Assembly (NCBI RefSeq): GCF_025770765.1
Contig: NZ_JANZKY010000016.1
Span: forward strand, 62,001 to 126,000
Direction of reading: 5' to 3'
Length of the DNA: 64,000 nucleotides
Source: Propionivibrio soli
GTDB lineage: Bacteria; Pseudomonadota; Gammaproteobacteria; Burkholderiales; Rhodocyclaceae
Part shown: positions 29,271 to 39,345 of the stretch, piece after piece
How positions within the stretch are numbered: the first letter of the stretch is position 1
How the letters are laid out: each line of letters begins with the position of its first letter
Notes under the pieces: generated by a model
Told to the model about the DNA's origin: nothing
The model's input: only the letters and a program-made list of their open reading frames with translations
Database searches by the model: none
Made by a program: the position numbers and the translations under genes

Positions 29271-30245
29271 TCAGCTGCCGAAGCGACAACAACCACAAGG
29301 GGGCTTCAGCCGGTAGGTCTTCTTGACCTGTTTTTTTCCTCTGGGCGACGACAGGCGGCTCGGGTCGCGGTAGATGATTGCTTCGCTGATTCCTGCCCAA
29401 CGACGTGCTTCGTCGCCAACCAAAGGCTCGGTCTCGTAGCCAAGTTTCTCGGACAATGCCGGAAGGAATACGTCGAAGGCCGCCTTCACCGTTTGCCCCC
29501 ATTCGGAAGTGGCACCCAAGGCAAAGTAGTAGAACAAGATGGATAACAGCAGTCCGCTCGTCGGCAACCAGACCTCGCGGACATATCCGTGGTAAGCGCA
29601 CAGCAAAGCGGCGGCATCGGCGAGGAGCAGCGATAACACCGAGAGATTCAGCCAAAGGTCGGCCCCTGTTTTCGCCGTTTCAATAACCTCCGCGTAGTCT
29701 TTGGGCAGGATGCACACGAGCCGGCTCCAACCTGGGATGCCGTCAAGACCGTACATGACGCGCGGGTACACCTCGAACGCGCGGATCCGGTTTCCCAGGC
29801 TTGTCGGGAGAAGGAAGCGCTCCGAATCAGGAAACTGCTCGGCCAGCTTAAGGTTAAGCGCGCTCCAGGTTCGCTGTTGTTCGTCGGTGAACTGTTCGCC
29901 TTGCCGCTCATAGGCTTCAGCAAGGGCCTTAACGGCCGTGTGGGTCGCCTCGAATCGGTATGTCTCTATGCGCTTCAATACCGACCAGGAAGCGATGCCG
30001 ATGTACCCCTCGAAAAGCCGATAGATGAATCGATTGAAAGCAACCAGGATCGTCCCTACCAGCCACGAGAACAACGCGGCCATGCCTCCGAGCGTCGCGA
30101 GATCCTTGGTAATTGAATCCCAGCCAGGCAGGGTGAGGTGCAATACGTTCGTCGTCAGTGTGGCGGCCAAGCAGAACGCGAATCCCGGTAGCAGGAAGCC
30201 GACGACGAAGTTCTTGCCGAAGAGCTTTGGTATCTCGTTGAGCAC
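29271..30245 (-). CDS. Integral membrane protein of unknown function
   Basis: 324 aa, not recognised. Hydrophobic segments lie near residues 12-32 ('FVVGFLLPGFAFCLAATL'), 50-70 ('LGGMAALFSWLVGTILVAF') and two in tandem at about 200-245 ('LLADAAALLCAYHGYV', 'LLLSILFYYFALGATSEW'). A soluble helical stretch of about 120 residues lies between the second and third, and the tail is basic, ending with two nearby cysteine residues ('PPCGCCRFGS'). The start is a GTG at 30245, 14 nt after the stop of the HU-like gene, so the two are probably co-transcribed. No enzymatic motif is visible. Confidence 0.6.
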   Translation of the reverse strand: MLNEIPKLFGKNFVVGFLLPGFAFCLAATLTTNVLHLTLPGWDSITKDLATLGGMAALFSWLVGTILVAFNRFIYRLFEGYIGIASWSVLKRIETYRFEATHTAVKALAEAYERQGEQFTDEQQRTWSALNLKLAEQFPDSERFLLPTSLGNRIRAFEVYPRVMYGLDGIPGWSRLVCILPKDYAEVIETAKTGADLWLNLSVLSLLLADAAALLCAYHGYVREVWLPTSGLLLSILFYYFALGATSEWGQTVKAAFDVFLPALSEKLGYETEPLVGDEARRWAGISEAIIYRDPSRLSSPRGKKQVKKTYRLKPPCGCCRFGS

Positions 30246-30610: not shown

Positions 30611-30979
30611 AGAGCCTCCTTCATCCGACTCCGTCGTCGCTCAATCTGGTCAGGAGACTCCTGGATAAGCGACTGCTTCAGACTACCCTTCCGAGGGCAT
30701 CACACAACAAGCGAAAGGCGAAGTCAACACGCTGGCACACGACGTGTTCTTGAGCGGAGCTGGCGGACCGATCGCCGCCGACAGGCATACCCAAAGAACA
30801 GCATACGGAATGAAGTCGTGGAGGGCTTCAGAACGGGCCACAGTCTTTACAAAGAGTTTTCAGCAAAATCGAGATCATGGGACCGGAATTTACGAAATCT
30901 TGATGCACGCGCCTCGAGTCTTTCCAACGTTTTGACGCGCGTGTTCTTAGCATGATGGTGTCAATCAAGGAGAACCATC
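30611..30979. other. Intergenic region with first copy of the kdp-type regulatory block
   Basis: 369 bp between the divergent HU-like gene and the 68-aa ORF. It holds a perfect CAGGAG-A-CTCCTG palindrome near 30649 and, at 30889-30937, a block repeated upstream of kdp. No other gene is supported. Confidence 0.5.
30889..30937 (+). promoter_or_regulatory. Regulatory block, copy A (upstream of the 68-aa membrane ORF)
   Basis: TTTACG (30889-30894), N3, TCTTGAT (30898-30904), N15, CTTTC (30920-30924), N5, TTTTGACG (30930-30937). All four words and all three spacings are repeated at 31204-31252 upstream of the kdp operon. It is probably a binding array for one regulator, most simply KdpE, plus promoter sequence. 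The identity of the regulator is inferred. Confidence 0.55.
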
Positions 30980-31186
30980 ATGACAATCCGAAGCTACCTG
31001 ATCCTCATTGCCACACACCCGCTGTTGTTGCGTCTGGCGATAGCAGCGCTAGCCGTTATGGCGATTGCCGTCGTCCACACCGTGGCCAAACGCCTGCTCA
31101 CGCCTCCTCGGACACGCCGCGCCGAACGCGCAGCCTCCTCGGTACAAAACGAGCCTCGTCGAGTCATCGCGACGGTCTTTTTCTGA
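30980..31186 (+). CDS. Small single-span membrane protein upstream of kdp
   Basis: 68 aa. The ATG at 30980 has a strong AAGGAG site 7-8 nt upstream. An N-terminal hydrophobic helix of about 28 residues ('SYLILIATHPLLLRLAIAAL' and on) is followed by a basic, Arg-rich tail ('PPRTRRAERAASS'). I recognise no family. Because its upstream region repeats the block in front of kdp, it may be expressed under potassium limitation. The strong ribosome site and membrane pattern favour a real gene, but with no homology evidence this is moderate. Confidence 0.5.
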   Translation: MTIRSYLILIATHPLLLRLAIAALAVMAIAVVHTVAKRLLTPPRTRRAERAASSVQNEPRRVIATVFF

Positions 31187-31203
31187 TGCGACGCCCCCCG
31201 ATT

Positions 31204-31252
31204 TTTACGGTTTCTTGATACGGGTAGCGCACATCTTTCGATCATTTTGACG
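31204..31252 (+). promoter_or_regulatory. kdpp: Regulatory block, copy B (kdp operon promoter region)
   Basis: TTTACG (31204-31209), N3, TCTTGAT (31213-31219), N15, CTTTC (31235-31239), N5, TTTTGACG (31245-31252), followed by TATACGAT (31261-31268), a possible -10 region. It lies 50 bp before the first ORF of the kdp operon. KdpE, encoded by the last gene, is the expected activator of kdp at low K+ or high osmolarity. Confidence 0.6.
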
Positions 31253-31301
31253 ACCAGCTTTATACGATGAATCCGTCGAAATAAAACAATGGAGTTCGCT
31301 C

Positions 31302-31394
31302 ATGGATATCGCCTTTCTCGCGCTCATCGGACTGTTCTTCGTCCTGATGATCGGCTTTGCCGCCGGCTGTGCCCGGTTGGGAGGTGGCAGATGA
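31302..31394 (+). CDS. Small membrane peptide at the head of the kdp operon
   Basis: 30 aa: one hydrophobic helix ('[18 protein letters not shown]') ending in 'CARLGGGR'. The stop overlaps the start of kdpF as ATGA, so it is coupled to the operon. GGAG (31291-31294) precedes the ATG. Short ORFs of this kind before kdpF occur in other Proteobacteria as far as I recall; the function is unknown. It could be an extra small Kdp subunit. Confidence 0.55.
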
Positions 31395-31483
31395 CCTGGC
31401 TTTACGTTCTCAGCGGCATCGTCGCCGCCGGCCTGCTCGTCTATCTGGTTGCAGCGCTGCTCAACCCGGAGGACTTTTCATGA
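31391..31483 (+). CDS. kdpF: Potassium-transporting ATPase subunit KdpF
   Basis: 30 aa, normal for KdpF: one transmembrane helix ('[19 protein letters not shown]') with the typical 'NPEDF' C-terminus. It stabilises the KdpFABC complex in the inner membrane. It overlaps kdpA by ATGA at 31480-31483 and carries its own GGAGG site for kdpA within its 3' end. Confidence 0.88.
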
Positions 31484-33258
31484 CCACGCATGCCTGGACG
31501 CTTCTTGGACTTTTCCTGGCCATCCTGTTGGTGACCGTCAAACCGATGGGTCTCTATCTCGCCAAGGTGATGGCAGGCGATTATGGATTCGTCCGCAAGA
31601 CCGAAAGCCCCCTCTATCGGCTGTGTGGCGTGCAGGCGGACGAGGAGATGGTCTGGCTGAAATACGCCTTCGCCATCCTTCTGTTCAATGCGCTCGGCGT
31701 TCTTGCCGTGTACGCGCTGCAGCGCCTGCAGGCGTGGCTGCCGCTCAACCCGCAGGGCATGGCTAACGTCAGTCCGGACTCGGCGTTCAACACAGCGATC
31801 AGCTTCGTCTCGAACACCAACTGGCAGGGCTACGGCGGCGAGTCGACGATGAGCTACCTGACGCAGATGCTGGCGCTCACCGTGCAGAACTTCCTGTCCG
31901 CCGCCACCGGCATCGTCGTCGTCATCGCACTGATCCGCGGCTTCGCCCGCCACACCGCAGCGACGGTAGGCAATGCCTGGGTCGATCTCACGCGCGTCAC
32001 ACTGTACGTCCTGTTGCCGATCTCCATCGTCTATGCCGTCTTCCTGGTAGGCCAAGGGTCGATCCAGAACCTCGATGCGTACAAGGAAGTCACGACGCTG
32101 GAAGTCACCAAGTACGACGCACCCAAACTCGACGCCGACGGCCAGCCGGTCAAGGATGAAAAAGGCGCCGTGGTCAACGAACCCGCTGAAACGGCGACCC
32201 AGACGCTGGCCATGGGGCCGGTCGCCTCGCAGGAGGCGATCAAGATGCTCGGCACCAACGGCGGCGGCTTCTTCAACGCCAACTCGGCGCATCCCTACGA
32301 GAATCCGACGCCGCTGTCGAACTTCATCCAGATGCTGTCGATCTTCCTGATCCCCGGTGCGCTGTGCTTCACCTTCGGACGCATGGTCGGCGACACCCGC
32401 CAGGGCTGGGCCGTACTCGCCGTGATGACGGTGATGTTCGCCGGACTGGCAATCGCCGCCATGTATTTTGAACAGCAGGCCAACCCTCTGCTGACGCAAC
32501 TCGGCGTCGATCCGACGTTCGGCAACATGGAAGGCAAGGAGACGCGTTTCGGTATCGCCGATTCCGGACTGTTCGCCACAATCACCACCGCCGCGTCCTG
32601 CGGCGCGGTAATCGCCATGCACGACTCGTTCATGCCGCTCGGCGGCCTGGTGCCGCTGGTCGACATGCAACTCGGAGAAGTGGTCTTCGGCGGCGTCGGC
32701 TCGGGCCTTTACGGCATGCTGGTGTTCGCCATCCTGGCGGTCTTCATTTCCGGCCTGATGATCGGCCGCACGCCGGAGTATCTCGGCAAGAAGATCGAGA
32801 CCTACGAGATGAAGATGACCTCCATCGCCATCCTGGTCACTCCGCTGCTGGTGCTGGTCGGCACGGCCGTCGCCGTGATCACCGGCGACGGCCGTGCCGG
32901 CATCGCCAACCCCGGCGCGCACGGTTTCTCCGAGATCCTCTACGCCTTCTCCTCGGCGGCCAACAACAACGGCAGCGCGTTTGCCGGGCTTTCCGCCAAT
33001 ACGCCGTTCTACAACACCATGCTGGGGATCGCGATGTGGTTCGGACGCTTCGGCGTGATCGTGCCAGTGCTGGCCATGGCCGGCTCGCTGGCCGCCAAGA
33101 AGCGCCTGGCCGTCACCGAAGGCACGCTGCCGACCCATGGGCCGTTGTTCGTCGTCCTGCTGATCGGCGTCGTGTTGCTGGTCGGCCTGCTGAACTACGT
33201 TCCTGCGCTGGCACTTGGTCCGGTCATCGAGCAGTTGATGCTCTTCGCCACGTACTGA
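31480..33258 (+). CDS. kdpA: Potassium-transporting ATPase, K+-binding subunit A
   Basis: 592 aa, about 10-12 membrane helices. KdpA is the channel-like K+-selecting subunit of the high-affinity KdpFABC pump. Pore/selectivity segments include '[17 protein letters not shown]', '[16 protein letters not shown]', '[19 protein letters not shown]' and '[17 protein letters not shown]'. The ATG at 31480 is coupled to kdpF, and 13 nt separate it from kdpB. A very long minus-strand open frame across this gene is a composition artefact. Confidence 0.97.
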
Positions 33259-35959: not shown

Positions 35960-38659
35960 ATGGACAGCGAGCGGCCTGACCCAGACAAGTTGCTGAGCCA
36001 GGTCCAGGCCGACGAGGCCAAGGCAAGGCGCGGCAAGCTGAAGATATTCTTCGGCGCCTCTGCCGGGGTCGGCAAGACCTACGCGATGCTCGGCGACGCC
36101 CGCCAGCAGTTGCTACAGGGCACCGATGTGGTAATCGGCGTGGTCGAGACACACGGACGCATGGAAACCGAGGTCATGGCCGACGGCATGGAACGGCTGC
36201 CTTTGCGCGACGTCCCTTACCGCCACCGCATCCTCAAGGAGTTCGATATCGACGGCGCGCTGGCGCGCAAGCCGGCGACCATTCTGATGGACGAACTAGC
36301 GCACTCGAACGTCGCCGGTTCGCGCCATCCGAAACGCTGGCAGGATGTGCAGGAACTGCTTGACGCCGGTATCGACGTCTATTCCACCATCAACGTGCAG
36401 CACCTTGAAAGCCTCAACGATATCGTCAGCGGCATCACCGGCATCCGTGTCTGGGAGACAGTGCCTGATCGCCTATTCGACGAGGCCGACGAGGTGGTCG
36501 TCGTCGACTTCCCGCCCGACGAACTAATCGAGCGCTTGCGCCAGGGCAAGGTTTATCTCCCCGAACAGGCAAAGCTCGCGTCGAAGAATTTCTTCCGAAA
36601 AGGTAATCTGCTGGCTCTGCGCGAATTGTCTCTGCGACGCGCGGCTAACCGCGTCGACGACGAGATGCAGGCTTACCGCAAACGTAGTTCGACAGCCCCC
36701 GTGTGGCCGACACGCGAATCGCTGCTGGCCTGTGTGGAGGGAGGTAAAGGCGGCGGCGAACGTGGCGAGAAGATCGTGCGCAGTTGCGCGCGCCTGGCGG
36801 CGCAATTCGACGTACCGTGGCATGCGGTGCATGTAGAAACCCGAAATTATGCGGATGAGCAACAGCACCAGGAGATGCTACGGGTGCTCAAGCTCGCACA
36901 GGATCTCGGCGCGACGACGGCCACCCTATCCGCACCGGCCATTGCCCCGGCGCTGGTGCGCTATGCCCGCGAACATAACCTGTCGCGCCTCGTGATGGGG
37001 CGCTCGCACCGGCGCTGGCGCTGGCCGTGGCAACAGACGATCGGTGAGGCCATTGAGGGCGAGGCCGGTGATCTGGACATCCTGCGCGTCGCGTTGCCGC
37101 GCAAAACAAGGGGGGGTAACGAAGGAGGGGGAAAATCGCGGCGAGGCGCCGCGCCGGTGCACTGGAAAGGCTATGCCGCTGCCATTGCCATATGCGGCGC
37201 CACCACGCTAGCGGCCACGCCGCTGCTGGGCCGCATCGAGCTGACCAACATCGTCATGCTGTTCCTGCTCGCCATCGTCGGCGTGGCGCTGGCGTTCGGA
37301 CGTGGCCCGGCCGTGCTCGCTGCCTTCGTCGGCGTCGGGCTCTTCGACTTCTTCTTCGTCCCGCCGCGCTTCTCGTTCGCCGTCAGCGACATCCAATACC
37401 TGATCACCTTCGCCGTTATGCTCGTCGTCGCCCTCGTCGTCGGCCAGTTGACGGCCGGCCTGCGCGTGCAGGTGGCGGCAGTCACTGAGCGCGAGCGGCG
37501 CATCAGCGGGTTGTATGAAATGTCGCGCGAGCTGTCCGCGACACTGTTGCCCGAGCAGGTCGCCGAAATCGGCATCCGCTTCCTAGCCACGGAATTCGGC
37601 TTCAAGTCGGTGCTGCTCTTCGCCGACGACGAGGACAAGCTCCAGATCATGCCGGGAGCGACCACCGACGTCGACATGGGGGTCGCATCATGGGCCTTCG
37701 AGCGTGGCGTGGCCGCCGGACGCGGTACCGACACGCTGCCCGCCAGCAAATGCCTGGTGCTGCCGCTCAAGGCCACGATGCGCTTGCGCGGCGTGCTGGC
37801 CGTCGAACCAGGCGGCAGCGGCCTGCTCGATCCCGAACTGCGCCGCGTACTCGATACCTGCGCCTCCCTGCTCGCCATCTCGGTCGAACGCATCCATTAC
37901 ATCGACATCGCGCAGAAGACCACCGTGCAGATGGAATCGGAACGCCTGCGCAACTCGCTGCTCTCGGCGATCTCGCACGACCTGCGCACGCCGCTCGCTT
38001 CACTGGTCGGACTAGCTGATACCCTGCAGATGACCCGGCCGGTGCCGACCGGACAGCAGCTCGAAGTGATCCAGTCGATGCGCAACTCTGCGACGCGCAT
38101 GAACACGCTGGTCGGCAACCTGCTCGACATGGCGCGGCTGGAATCGGGTGCAGTACAGCTCAATCGGCAGTGGCAACCGCTTGAGGAAGTGATCGGCACC
38201 GCGCTCGGCGCGTGCGCCTCGTTGCTGAATGGACGGCCGATCCGGACCGACCTGGCGGCGGACCTGCCGTTGCTGCATTTCGACGCAGTTCTGATCGAGC
38301 GCGTGCTGGTCAACGTGCTGGAGAACGCGAGCAAGTACACGCCGGCTGGCACGCCGATCGAAATTCGCGCACATGCGGAAACCGACGACGTGGTGCTGCG
38401 TATAGACGACCATGGCCCAGGTCTGCCACGCGGGCGTGAAGAGGCGATCTTCGAAAAATTCGAACGTGGCCGCCGCGAAAGCGCAACGCCCGGAGTTGGC
38501 TTAGGCCTTACCATCTGCCGCGCGATAATGCAGGCCCACGGCGGCACGATCCGTGGCGAAACACGCAAGGAAGGCGGCGCAAGTTTCGTCGTCACCCTGC
38601 CGCGCGGCAAACCGCCGGCCGACGATGGCGGCGAGGAACTGCCGGATACGCAATCATGA
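35960..38659 (+). CDS. kdpD: Osmosensitive K+ channel sensor histidine kinase KdpD
   Basis: 899 aa, matching E. coli KdpD closely in layout. The N-terminal KdpD domain has Walker A 'GASAGVGKT' (residues 32-40) and 'LMDELAHSN'. A USP-like domain (about 250-370) and a four-helix DUF4118 membrane module (about 395-500) follow, then a GAF-type region. The HisKA domain has His673 in 'SAISHDLRTPLAS', the same number as the phosphorylated His of E. coli KdpD, and a HATPase_c domain is C-terminal. It phosphorylates KdpE under K+ limitation. It overlaps kdpE by ATGA. Confidence 0.97.
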   Translation: MDSERPDPDKLLSQVQADEAKARRGKLKIFFGASAGVGKTYAMLGDARQQLLQGTDVVIGVVETHGRMETEVMADGMERLPLRDVPYRHRILKEFDIDGALARKPATILMDELAHSNVAGSRHPKRWQDVQELLDAGIDVYSTINVQHLESLNDIVSGITGIRVWETVPDRLFDEADEVVVVDFPPDELIERLRQGKVYLPEQAKLASKNFFRKGNLLALRELSLRRAANRVDDEMQAYRKRSSTAPVWPTRESLLACVEGGKGGGERGEKIVRSCARLAAQFDVPWHAVHVETRNYADEQQHQEMLRVLKLAQDLGATTATLSAPAIAPALVRYAREHNLSRLVMGRSHRRWRWPWQQTIGEAIEGEAGDLDILRVALPRKTRGGNEGGGKSRRGAAPVHWKGYAAAIAICGATTLAATPLLGRIELTNIVMLFLLAIVGVALAFGRGPAVLAAFVGVGLFDFFFVPPRFSFAVSDIQYLITFAVMLVVALVVGQLTAGLRVQVAAVTERERRISGLYEMSRELSATLLPEQVAEIGIRFLATEFGFKSVLLFADDEDKLQIMPGATTDVDMGVASWAFERGVAAGRGTDTLPASKCLVLPLKATMRLRGVLAVEPGGSGLLDPELRRVLDTCASLLAISVERIHYIDIAQKTTVQMESERLRNSLLSAISHDLRTPLASLVGLADTLQMTRPVPTGQQLEVIQSMRNSATRMNTLVGNLLDMARLESGAVQLNRQWQPLEEVIGTALGACASLLNGRPIRTDLAADLPLLHFDAVLIERVLVNVLENASKYTPAGTPIEIRAHAETDDVVLRIDDHGPGLPRGREEAIFEKFERGRRESATPGVGLGLTICRAIMQAHGGTIRGETRKEGGASFVVTLPRGKPPADDGGEELPDTQS

Positions 38660-39345
38660 GTGAAAACAAGCCTCGAGTACTGATCGTCGAGGACGAAAGT
38701 GACATCCGCCGTTTTGTCCGTATGGCGCTGGAAAGCGAAGGGTATGAAGCTTATGAAGCCGACACGCTCAAAAGGGGCTTGATCGAAGCGGGCACCCGGC
38801 GGCCGGAACTCGTCATGCTCGACCTTGGTCTTCCCGATGGTGACGGCGTGGACTTCATCCGCGAACTGCGGGCCTGGACGGGAATTCCTGTCATCGTTCT
38901 CTCAGCGCGTGGCGCGGAGAGCGACAAGATCGGAGCGCTGGATGCTGGCGCCGACGACTATCTCGTGAAACCGTTCGGGGCCGGCGAACTGCTCGCCCGC
39001 GTGCGAGCTCAGTTCCGACGTCATGCTTACGCGGATTCGGGAGAATCTCTCGTCAGTTTCGGCGATGTCCGCATCGATCTGGCTCGCCGCTTGGTTGAAC
39101 GGAATGGCCAACCGTTGCATCTCACGCCAATCGAATATCGCCTACTCACCTTTCTGGTCGCTCAACCGGACCGTGTCATCACCCATCGCCAACTGCTCAC
39201 GAAGGTCTGGGGGCCGAGCCACCTGGAGGACTTGCACTATGTTCGGGTGCATATGGCCAACTTGCGCAAGAAGATCGAACGCGATCCTTCGATGCCGAAG
39301 CACGTTCTCACCGAATCAGGAATTGGTTATCGATTCGTGCTTTGA
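38656..39345 (+). CDS. kdpE: Two-component response regulator KdpE
   Basis: 229 aa. The receiver domain has the acidic pair at 12-14, phospho-acceptor Asp56 in 'LVMLDLGLPDGDG' and Lys in 'DDYLVKPFG'. The OmpR/PhoB winged helix ends in 'RKKIERDPSMPKHVLTE'. It activates kdp transcription and should bind the 31204-31252 block, and perhaps its copy at 30889-30937. Its gene is the last of the operon, followed by a terminator at 39472. Confidence 0.96.
   Translation: MSENKPRVLIVEDESDIRRFVRMALESEGYEAYEADTLKRGLIEAGTRRPELVMLDLGLPDGDGVDFIRELRAWTGIPVIVLSARGAESDKIGALDAGADDYLVKPFGAGELLARVRAQFRRHAYADSGESLVSFGDVRIDLARRLVERNGQPLHLTPIEYRLLTFLVAQPDRVITHRQLLTKVWGPSHLEDLHYVRVHMANLRKKIERDPSMPKHVLTESGIGYRFVL

Follow-up and report, generated by a model that had tools for sequence, protein, structure and literature searches.

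A duplicated KdpE-type promoter with two predicted boxes upstream of kdp in Propionivibrio soli, one copy preceding a conserved gene for a putative small membrane protein

KdpD and KdpE form the textbook potassium switch. In the Propionivibrio soli DNA analyzed here (the window, a stretch of 64,000 nucleotides), a block of sequence directly upstream of the kdp operon recurs a short distance away, in front of an open reading frame (ORF) of 68 codons. This arrangement raises the question of whether the block is a KdpE-type promoter, and whether the small ORF belongs to the same regulon as the potassium pump.

Two copies of one block upstream of kdp

Direct comparison of the two blocks, copy A (30889-30937) and copy B (31204-31252), reveals identity at 33 of 49 positions, with the shared words equally spaced. 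When both upstream regions were shuffled 2,000 times with dinucleotides preserved, the best ungapped 49-mer match never exceeded 30, and local alignment of the same regions scores 17, whereas 1,000 shuffles reach at most 16. Thus, the duplicated 49-bp block with identical spacing that had been claimed from a sequence-only reading stands, at a level above all 2,000 shuffles. A general repeat search did not list the A/B pair, which direct comparison showed. The likeness extends past the 49 bp, with a −10-like hexamer at +59 in each copy and GTC(A/G) at a matching offset downstream of that hexamer. The promoter elements predicted from the letters, and the genes around them, are as follows.

30889..30905, + strand: copy A distal KdpE-type box, half-sites TTTACG (30889-30894) and TTGATG (30900-30905)
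30921..30937, + strand: copy A proximal box, half-sites TTTCCA (30921-30926) and TTGACG (30932-30937)
30948..30953, + strand: copy A −10-like hexamer TAGCAT at +59, predicted
30980..31186, + strand: 68-aa ORF, predicted single-pass membrane protein, with AAGGAG at 30967-30972
31204..31220, + strand: copy B distal KdpE-type box, half-sites TTTACG (31204-31209) and TTGATA (31215-31220)
31236..31252, + strand: copy B proximal box, half-sites TTTCGA (31236-31241) and TTGACG (31247-31252)
31263..31268, + strand: copy B −10-like hexamer TACGAT at +59, predicted
31302..31394, + strand: 30-aa hydrophobic ORF, first of the kdp operon; the pattern occurs in other kdp leaders as well
31391..31483, + strand: kdpF (PF09604, TIGR02115)
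31480..33258, + strand: kdpA (PF03814, TIGR00680)
35960..38659, + strand: kdpD; best NCBIfam match PRK10490 KdpD at 1063.7 bits, just below the cut-off of 1123
38656..39345, + strand: kdpE, last gene of the cluster; PRK10529 above cut-off, 60% identical to E. coli KdpE

The gene order first read from the sequence is correct in placing kdpE last in the cluster, but the first ORF 3' of copy B is the 30-aa ORF and not kdpF. This short ORF, which matches no Pfam or NCBIfam family, ends in GCARLGGGR and overlaps kdpF by 4 bp; a hand-made pattern finds ORFs of its type before kdpF in 49 of 83 kdp leaders. At a Rhodoferax locus (L060), a KdpE-type site (1783-1834) lies approximately 2.9 kb 5' of the kdp promoter, in front of an isolated 30-aa ORF that resembles the first kdp ORF. 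On the other side of copy A, the − strand carries a gene for an HU/IHF-type DNA-binding protein (PF00216, 30260-30610) and, beside it, a 324-aa ORF with no Pfam match (29271-30245).

The window holds both kdpD and kdpE. Residues R193, R200 and T215 of E. coli KdpE matter for DNA binding, according to the accessible portion of one study (PMC3264566), and the KdpE encoded here keeps all three, as R197, R204 and T219.

Half-site layout of the promoter

On an 11-bp ruler, the four words shared by the blocks become half-sites: TTTACG at 0, TTGAT(A/G) at +11, TTTC at +32 and TTGACG at +43. Read in this way, the words are predicted half-sites of two OmpR-type direct-repeat boxes (0/+11 and +32/+43), the second of which ends beside the −10-like hexamer. 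The distal pair of both copies consists of two TTTA-type half-sites 11 bp apart; base 3 of the second half-site is G and its base 5 is T or C, as in many relatives. The footprinted KdpE site of the E. coli kdpFABC promoter comprises, in the part of the report available, S1 TTTATA and S2 TTTACA separated by 5 bp, spanning −72 to −50 (PMC3264566). Judged by its match to these half-sites (TTTATA-5-TTTACA), the 0/+11 pair in the window corresponds to the known KdpE site.

The E. coli K-12 kdp promoter itself reads TTTATA, TTTACA, TTTGCG, TTTGCA and TACCCT at 0, +11, +32, +43 and +59. It thus resembles the promoters in the window in half-site sequence, in the 11-bp period and in the distance to the −10 hexamer, and has TTTGCG/TTTGCA at +32/+43 as well. 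It differs in that a single box is described there, in the text available to us, whereas the window has two conserved boxes and the whole promoter is present twice. The open-licence literature that we could consult in part yielded no description of the proximal (+32/+43) box, and the conservation of a further box at the core promoter is apparently new. The earlier proposal that the shared words are the KdpE elements of this lineage accords with the E. coli half-site match; the restriction to the lineage does not hold, since E. coli and the relatives carry them too.

To place this layout among relatives, 95 loci were entered, 15 with the genus set and 80 named loci that are the best 80 of 587 relatives. 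Loci L023 and L025-L027 never entered (split kdpA matches, G053 and G037), and removal of three duplicates (L032, L035 and L037) and of L064, which is too short, left 91. The four-half-site layout beats all 30 of a locus's own shuffles in 87 of these 91 kdp loci; L024, L041, L043 and L054 do not. This count is descriptive, because the half-site score was devised after the first loci had been read. The expectation that related kdp operons carry the block is thereby borne out, in E. coli K-12 as well as in these loci.

Among the 83 loci that score at least 34, columns with more than 1.5 bits carry T (0, 1, 9, 11, 12, 32, 43, 44 and 64) or A (3, 14, 46 and 60). Half-site 3 (+32) is weak apart from its initial T and a C at +36. 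Base 3 of the half-sites shows covariation from one box to the other: the T/G table for columns 13 and 45 is 27, 17, 2 and 35 (Fisher p 9e-8 over the 83 loci, uncorrected for shared descent), and after background correction this pair ranks third among those separated by more than 4 columns. Such covariation would be expected if a single protein reads both boxes; shared descent may also contribute to it.

The core promoter shows no −35 hexamer 15-19 bp from the −10 hexamer, where the mean is 0.6 to 2.1 matches of 6. Half-site +43 averages 4.2 matches to the −35 hexamer, yet lies only 10 bp from the −10. A sigma70 consensus scan found no promoter, which agrees with an activator-dependent promoter lacking a −35 element. 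PhoB, of the OmpR/PhoB family, acts at pho boxes that are 11-bp direct repeats, the last ending approximately 10 bp before the −10 hexamer and replacing the −35 element. The repeats in the window likewise have an 11-bp period and end approximately 10 bp before the −10 in the place of the −35, but their half-site sequence is another one and there are two boxes 32 bp apart. The KdpE motif of Mycobacterium smegmatis is reported to be dissimilar, as far as the consulted part of that work goes (PMC5401905), and the two-box rule therefore need not apply outside Proteobacteria.

Distribution of KdpE-type sites among genomes

A 16-bp pattern with 3 mismatches was dropped as a search tool, as it occurs at 525/472 places against 349/370 for the reversed control. 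Because so short a pattern is too unspecific, we used a sequence-only model of 67 positions, R1, built from 56 kdp promoters of other loci, none with a KdpA more than 79% identical to that of the window. Excluded from training were the nearest relatives (L031-L038), 10 loci scoring below 35 and, by hand, five of the remaining 61 (L053, L057, L085, L095 and L100), leaving the 56 that were aligned. None of these 56 sequences occurs in the genus loci L009-L017 and L112-L128 or in 29 loci of the order scan.

In the window's own genome (4.76 Mb, 36 contigs), R1 ranks copy A first (45.7 bits, E 2.9e-11) and copy B second (24.5 bits, E 1.3e-4), and finds nothing else under E 0.36 among the 150 of 952 first-look candidates that were scored; its E-values are rough because calibration was shortened. 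The model also finds the E. coli K-12 kdp promoter, at 26.9 bits. Over the 28 genomes of the genus scan (E <= 0.01), a match is present in 8 of 8 with kdpA and in 0 of 20 without it, a set that includes several incomplete assemblies (Fisher p 3e-7); in one of the eight (G018) the match is an internal site and the kdp promoter is missed. The 200 genomes of the order scan (E <= 0.001) give 42 of 69 with kdpA versus 3 of 131 without (Fisher p 3e-21). The association of R1 matches with kdp-bearing genomes is thus strong, and the 27 kdpA-positive order genomes that R1 misses at E <= 0.001 show its limited sensitivity under the stricter filters of that scan. The three exceptions have their site before kup (G038, PF02705) or before KdpD-like DUF4118 histidine kinases (G048 and G050). 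The site in G038, which has no kdpA match, is a KdpE-type promoter at G038:C1:3572114-3572174 (L181), hinting that a KdpE-like regulator may control another potassium transporter there. Plasmids searched with the block and its surroundings (461 bp) gave no match.

At least two R1 sites occur in 13 of the 42 R1-positive kdpA-bearing order genomes, and we inspected the genes downstream of 14 second sites in loci and of 19 further genome stretches. By family search, sites precede kdpD in G429 and G408 (in the latter with a hydrophobic ORF of 60 aa in between), a DUF4118 kinase in G112, a PTS_EIIA_2 (PtsN-like) protein in G054, an outer-membrane protein of the Gcw_chp type in G448 and a GATase-like protein in G449. 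Proteins of approximately 100-127 aa outside any Pfam family follow the sites in G480, G041 and G463. Assigned by eye only are kdpD (L047), DapA-like (L091 and L099), GATase-like (L073) and Gcw_chp-like (L104) genes. Other sites lie between kdpC and kdpD (L036), between a PtsN-like gene and kdpD (G018) or after a PtsN-like gene (G013). An evident link to K+ is absent from the site before a ferredoxin/ETF gene set in G391, and nothing clear follows the sites in G368 and G427 and one site in G041. In L036 (10013-10077), L128 and L125, a second KdpE-type promoter stands inside the kdp cluster after a PtsN-like gene; downstream of it come an ORF of 99-103 aa and a small one bearing the motif CPVCGxxHEVxA.

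Of the sources available in part, one lists E. coli KdpE as a single-target regulator (PMC8249747), another names kdpFABC as its sole target yet reports 31 ChIP-exo peaks (PMC7657598), and a further one describes KdpE binding to rsd and rmf probes (PMC10003395).

The 68-aa ORF and its place in the Kdp system

Orthologues of the 68-aa ORF lie upstream of kdp behind a KdpE-type promoter in G026 (44% identity), G008 (32-33%) and L031 (UBA703), so that ORF and promoter co-occur in four genomes, the window's genome included. All four copies have 68 or 69 codons and no internal indels; pS exceeds pN in 6 of 6 orthologue pairs, and third codon positions are the most variable. The ORF is conserved and tied to this promoter type, and from its pattern of change it looks like a real gene. 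Its range is narrow, comprising three of the eight kdpA-bearing genus genomes plus L031. A profile of three copies searched against 297 family genomes gave no additional convincing copy: six genomes had a match, namely the three known copies and three weak matches (E 0.0016-0.0085) within frames of 245-547 aa, which we dismissed. A second match in G026 was dismissed for an internal stop.

Hydropathy points to one membrane stretch at approximately residues 14-33, after which come 3 to 8 basic residues; the best 19-residue Kyte-Doolittle mean is 2.19-3.15 across the four orthologues, and the single-pass topology is a prediction from hydropathy. The ORF matches no Pfam family at E <= 0.1, its three orthologues match none at E <= 1, and its single NCBIfam match is far below the cut-off. 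E. coli K-12 also has a gene for a 68-aa protein adjoining kdp, ybfA (DUF2517). That gene is divergent from kdp, whereas the ORF in the window has the opposite orientation, and the ORF does not match the DUF2517 Pfam profile. No regulatory link between ybfA and kdp appeared in the portions of the literature on both that were accessible. Searches on KdpZ/KdpN, and on KdpE with RNA polymerase structures, turned up nothing of use.

Over 75 bp, promoter identity averages 69% among the four A copies and 66% among the four B copies, compared with 58% for A-B within genomes and 59% between genomes. As A copies are closer to one another than to the B copy of their own genome, the duplication is old and predates the split of these genomes. 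In G026, copy A deviates at half-sites 1 and 4 (TTTTCA and TTAACA). The suggestion that the small ORF belongs to the kdp regulon is well supported by sequence, since copies A and B are the only R1 sites under E 0.36 among the candidates scored in this genome, and ORF and promoter stay together in four genomes. That KdpE would have a second target, and that this would be a conserved small membrane protein, is apparently new, and the arrangement suggests that the protein is made together with the potassium pump.

We consider it probable (roughly 0.86) that copies A and B are KdpE-dependent two-box promoters, with A driving the gene for the 68-69-aa protein and B driving kdp. Each box would comprise two 6-bp half-sites 11 bp apart, and the two boxes would lie 32 bp, or about three helical turns, apart on the DNA, with the proximal box replacing the −35 element 10 bp before the −10-like hexamer. 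At low K+, or under osmotic stress, phosphorylated KdpE would occupy the two boxes and draw sigma70 RNA polymerase to the promoter, in the way that PhoB acts at pho boxes. Copy B would then switch on the kdp operon and copy A the gene for the single-pass membrane protein, which would be present when the pump is.

How far do other explanations account for these data? Short single words are common, as the frequency of the 16-bp pattern illustrates (525/472 places per strand, 349/370 in the reversed control), and the likeness could in principle reflect chance or common promoter vocabulary. That idea is already contradicted by the whole-block shuffles, which never reached 33, and by the E-value of copy A under a model trained on other loci, and its probability is practically negligible. 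It is also very unlikely that the sites belong to another OmpR/PhoB-family regulator, for example a PhoB-like one, with KdpE a bystander. Such a regulator could be accommodated inasmuch as 11-bp direct repeats are common to the family, R1 as a sequence model does not name a protein, and covariation between boxes suits any single protein; against it, the sites track kdpA in both genus (8/8 vs 0/20) and order (42/69 vs 3/131), in the three exceptions the site has kup or a KdpD-like kinase gene behind it, and the half-sites match the E. coli KdpE site.

Two further explanations concern copy A and the ORF. If copy A were the relic of an old, partial kdp-promoter duplication before a meaningless ORF, then the common promoter origin of A and B, an ORF of few copies outside any Pfam family and the two weakened half-sites in G026 would all be expected. 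A relic is nonetheless highly improbable: copy A scores above B here, it is retained in four genomes at 69% A-A identity, and the ORF has kept both its length and its reading frame, with pS exceeding pN in every pair. Somewhat unlikely, rather than remote, is the explanation that copy A serves kdp as an additional promoter further upstream, with a transcript that crosses the ORF into kdp, making the ORF a mere leader. The orientation is the same, 227 bp lead from the −10-like hexamer of copy A through the end region of the ORF to kdp's own leader, and near the ORF end there is one weak terminator-like site, with 0.7 expected by chance. Conversely, the ORF is conserved as a protein, which is not required of a leader, and kdp has its own complete promoter, B, directly after the ORF. 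Read-through into kdp and a separate role for the protein are compatible and not mutually exclusive.

If copies A and B are indeed two KdpE-dependent promoters, the function of the protein from copy A can be approached by analogy. MgrB is a small membrane protein in the PhoQ/PhoP regulon that inhibits its kinase, as stated in the consulted part of one paper (PMC8404706). The likeness would be that of a small membrane protein inside a two-component regulon, here a putative one with a KdpE-type promoter and a predicted membrane stretch. Tentatively, the leading candidate role for the 68-aa protein may be to tune KdpD or the KdpFABC pump.

A broader picture, which we offer as speculative, is that kdp promoters of Betaproteobacteria and E. 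coli have four half-sites, with a second KdpE dimer on the core promoter, such that the single-footprint picture in E. coli would be incomplete. The module might then have been copied in Betaproteobacteria to genes for small membrane proteins, kdpD, PtsN-like and Gcw_chp proteins and kup, and the 68-aa protein might be a dedicated Kdp feedback subunit of one Rhodocyclaceae lineage.

The proximal box is also visible in E. coli, and the mechanism of activation is thus testable in a standard laboratory strain. R1 is usable for mapping KdpE regulons in unstudied genomes. If the small membrane protein is a second KdpE target, it would give a direct handle on the tuning of the pump or its sensor.
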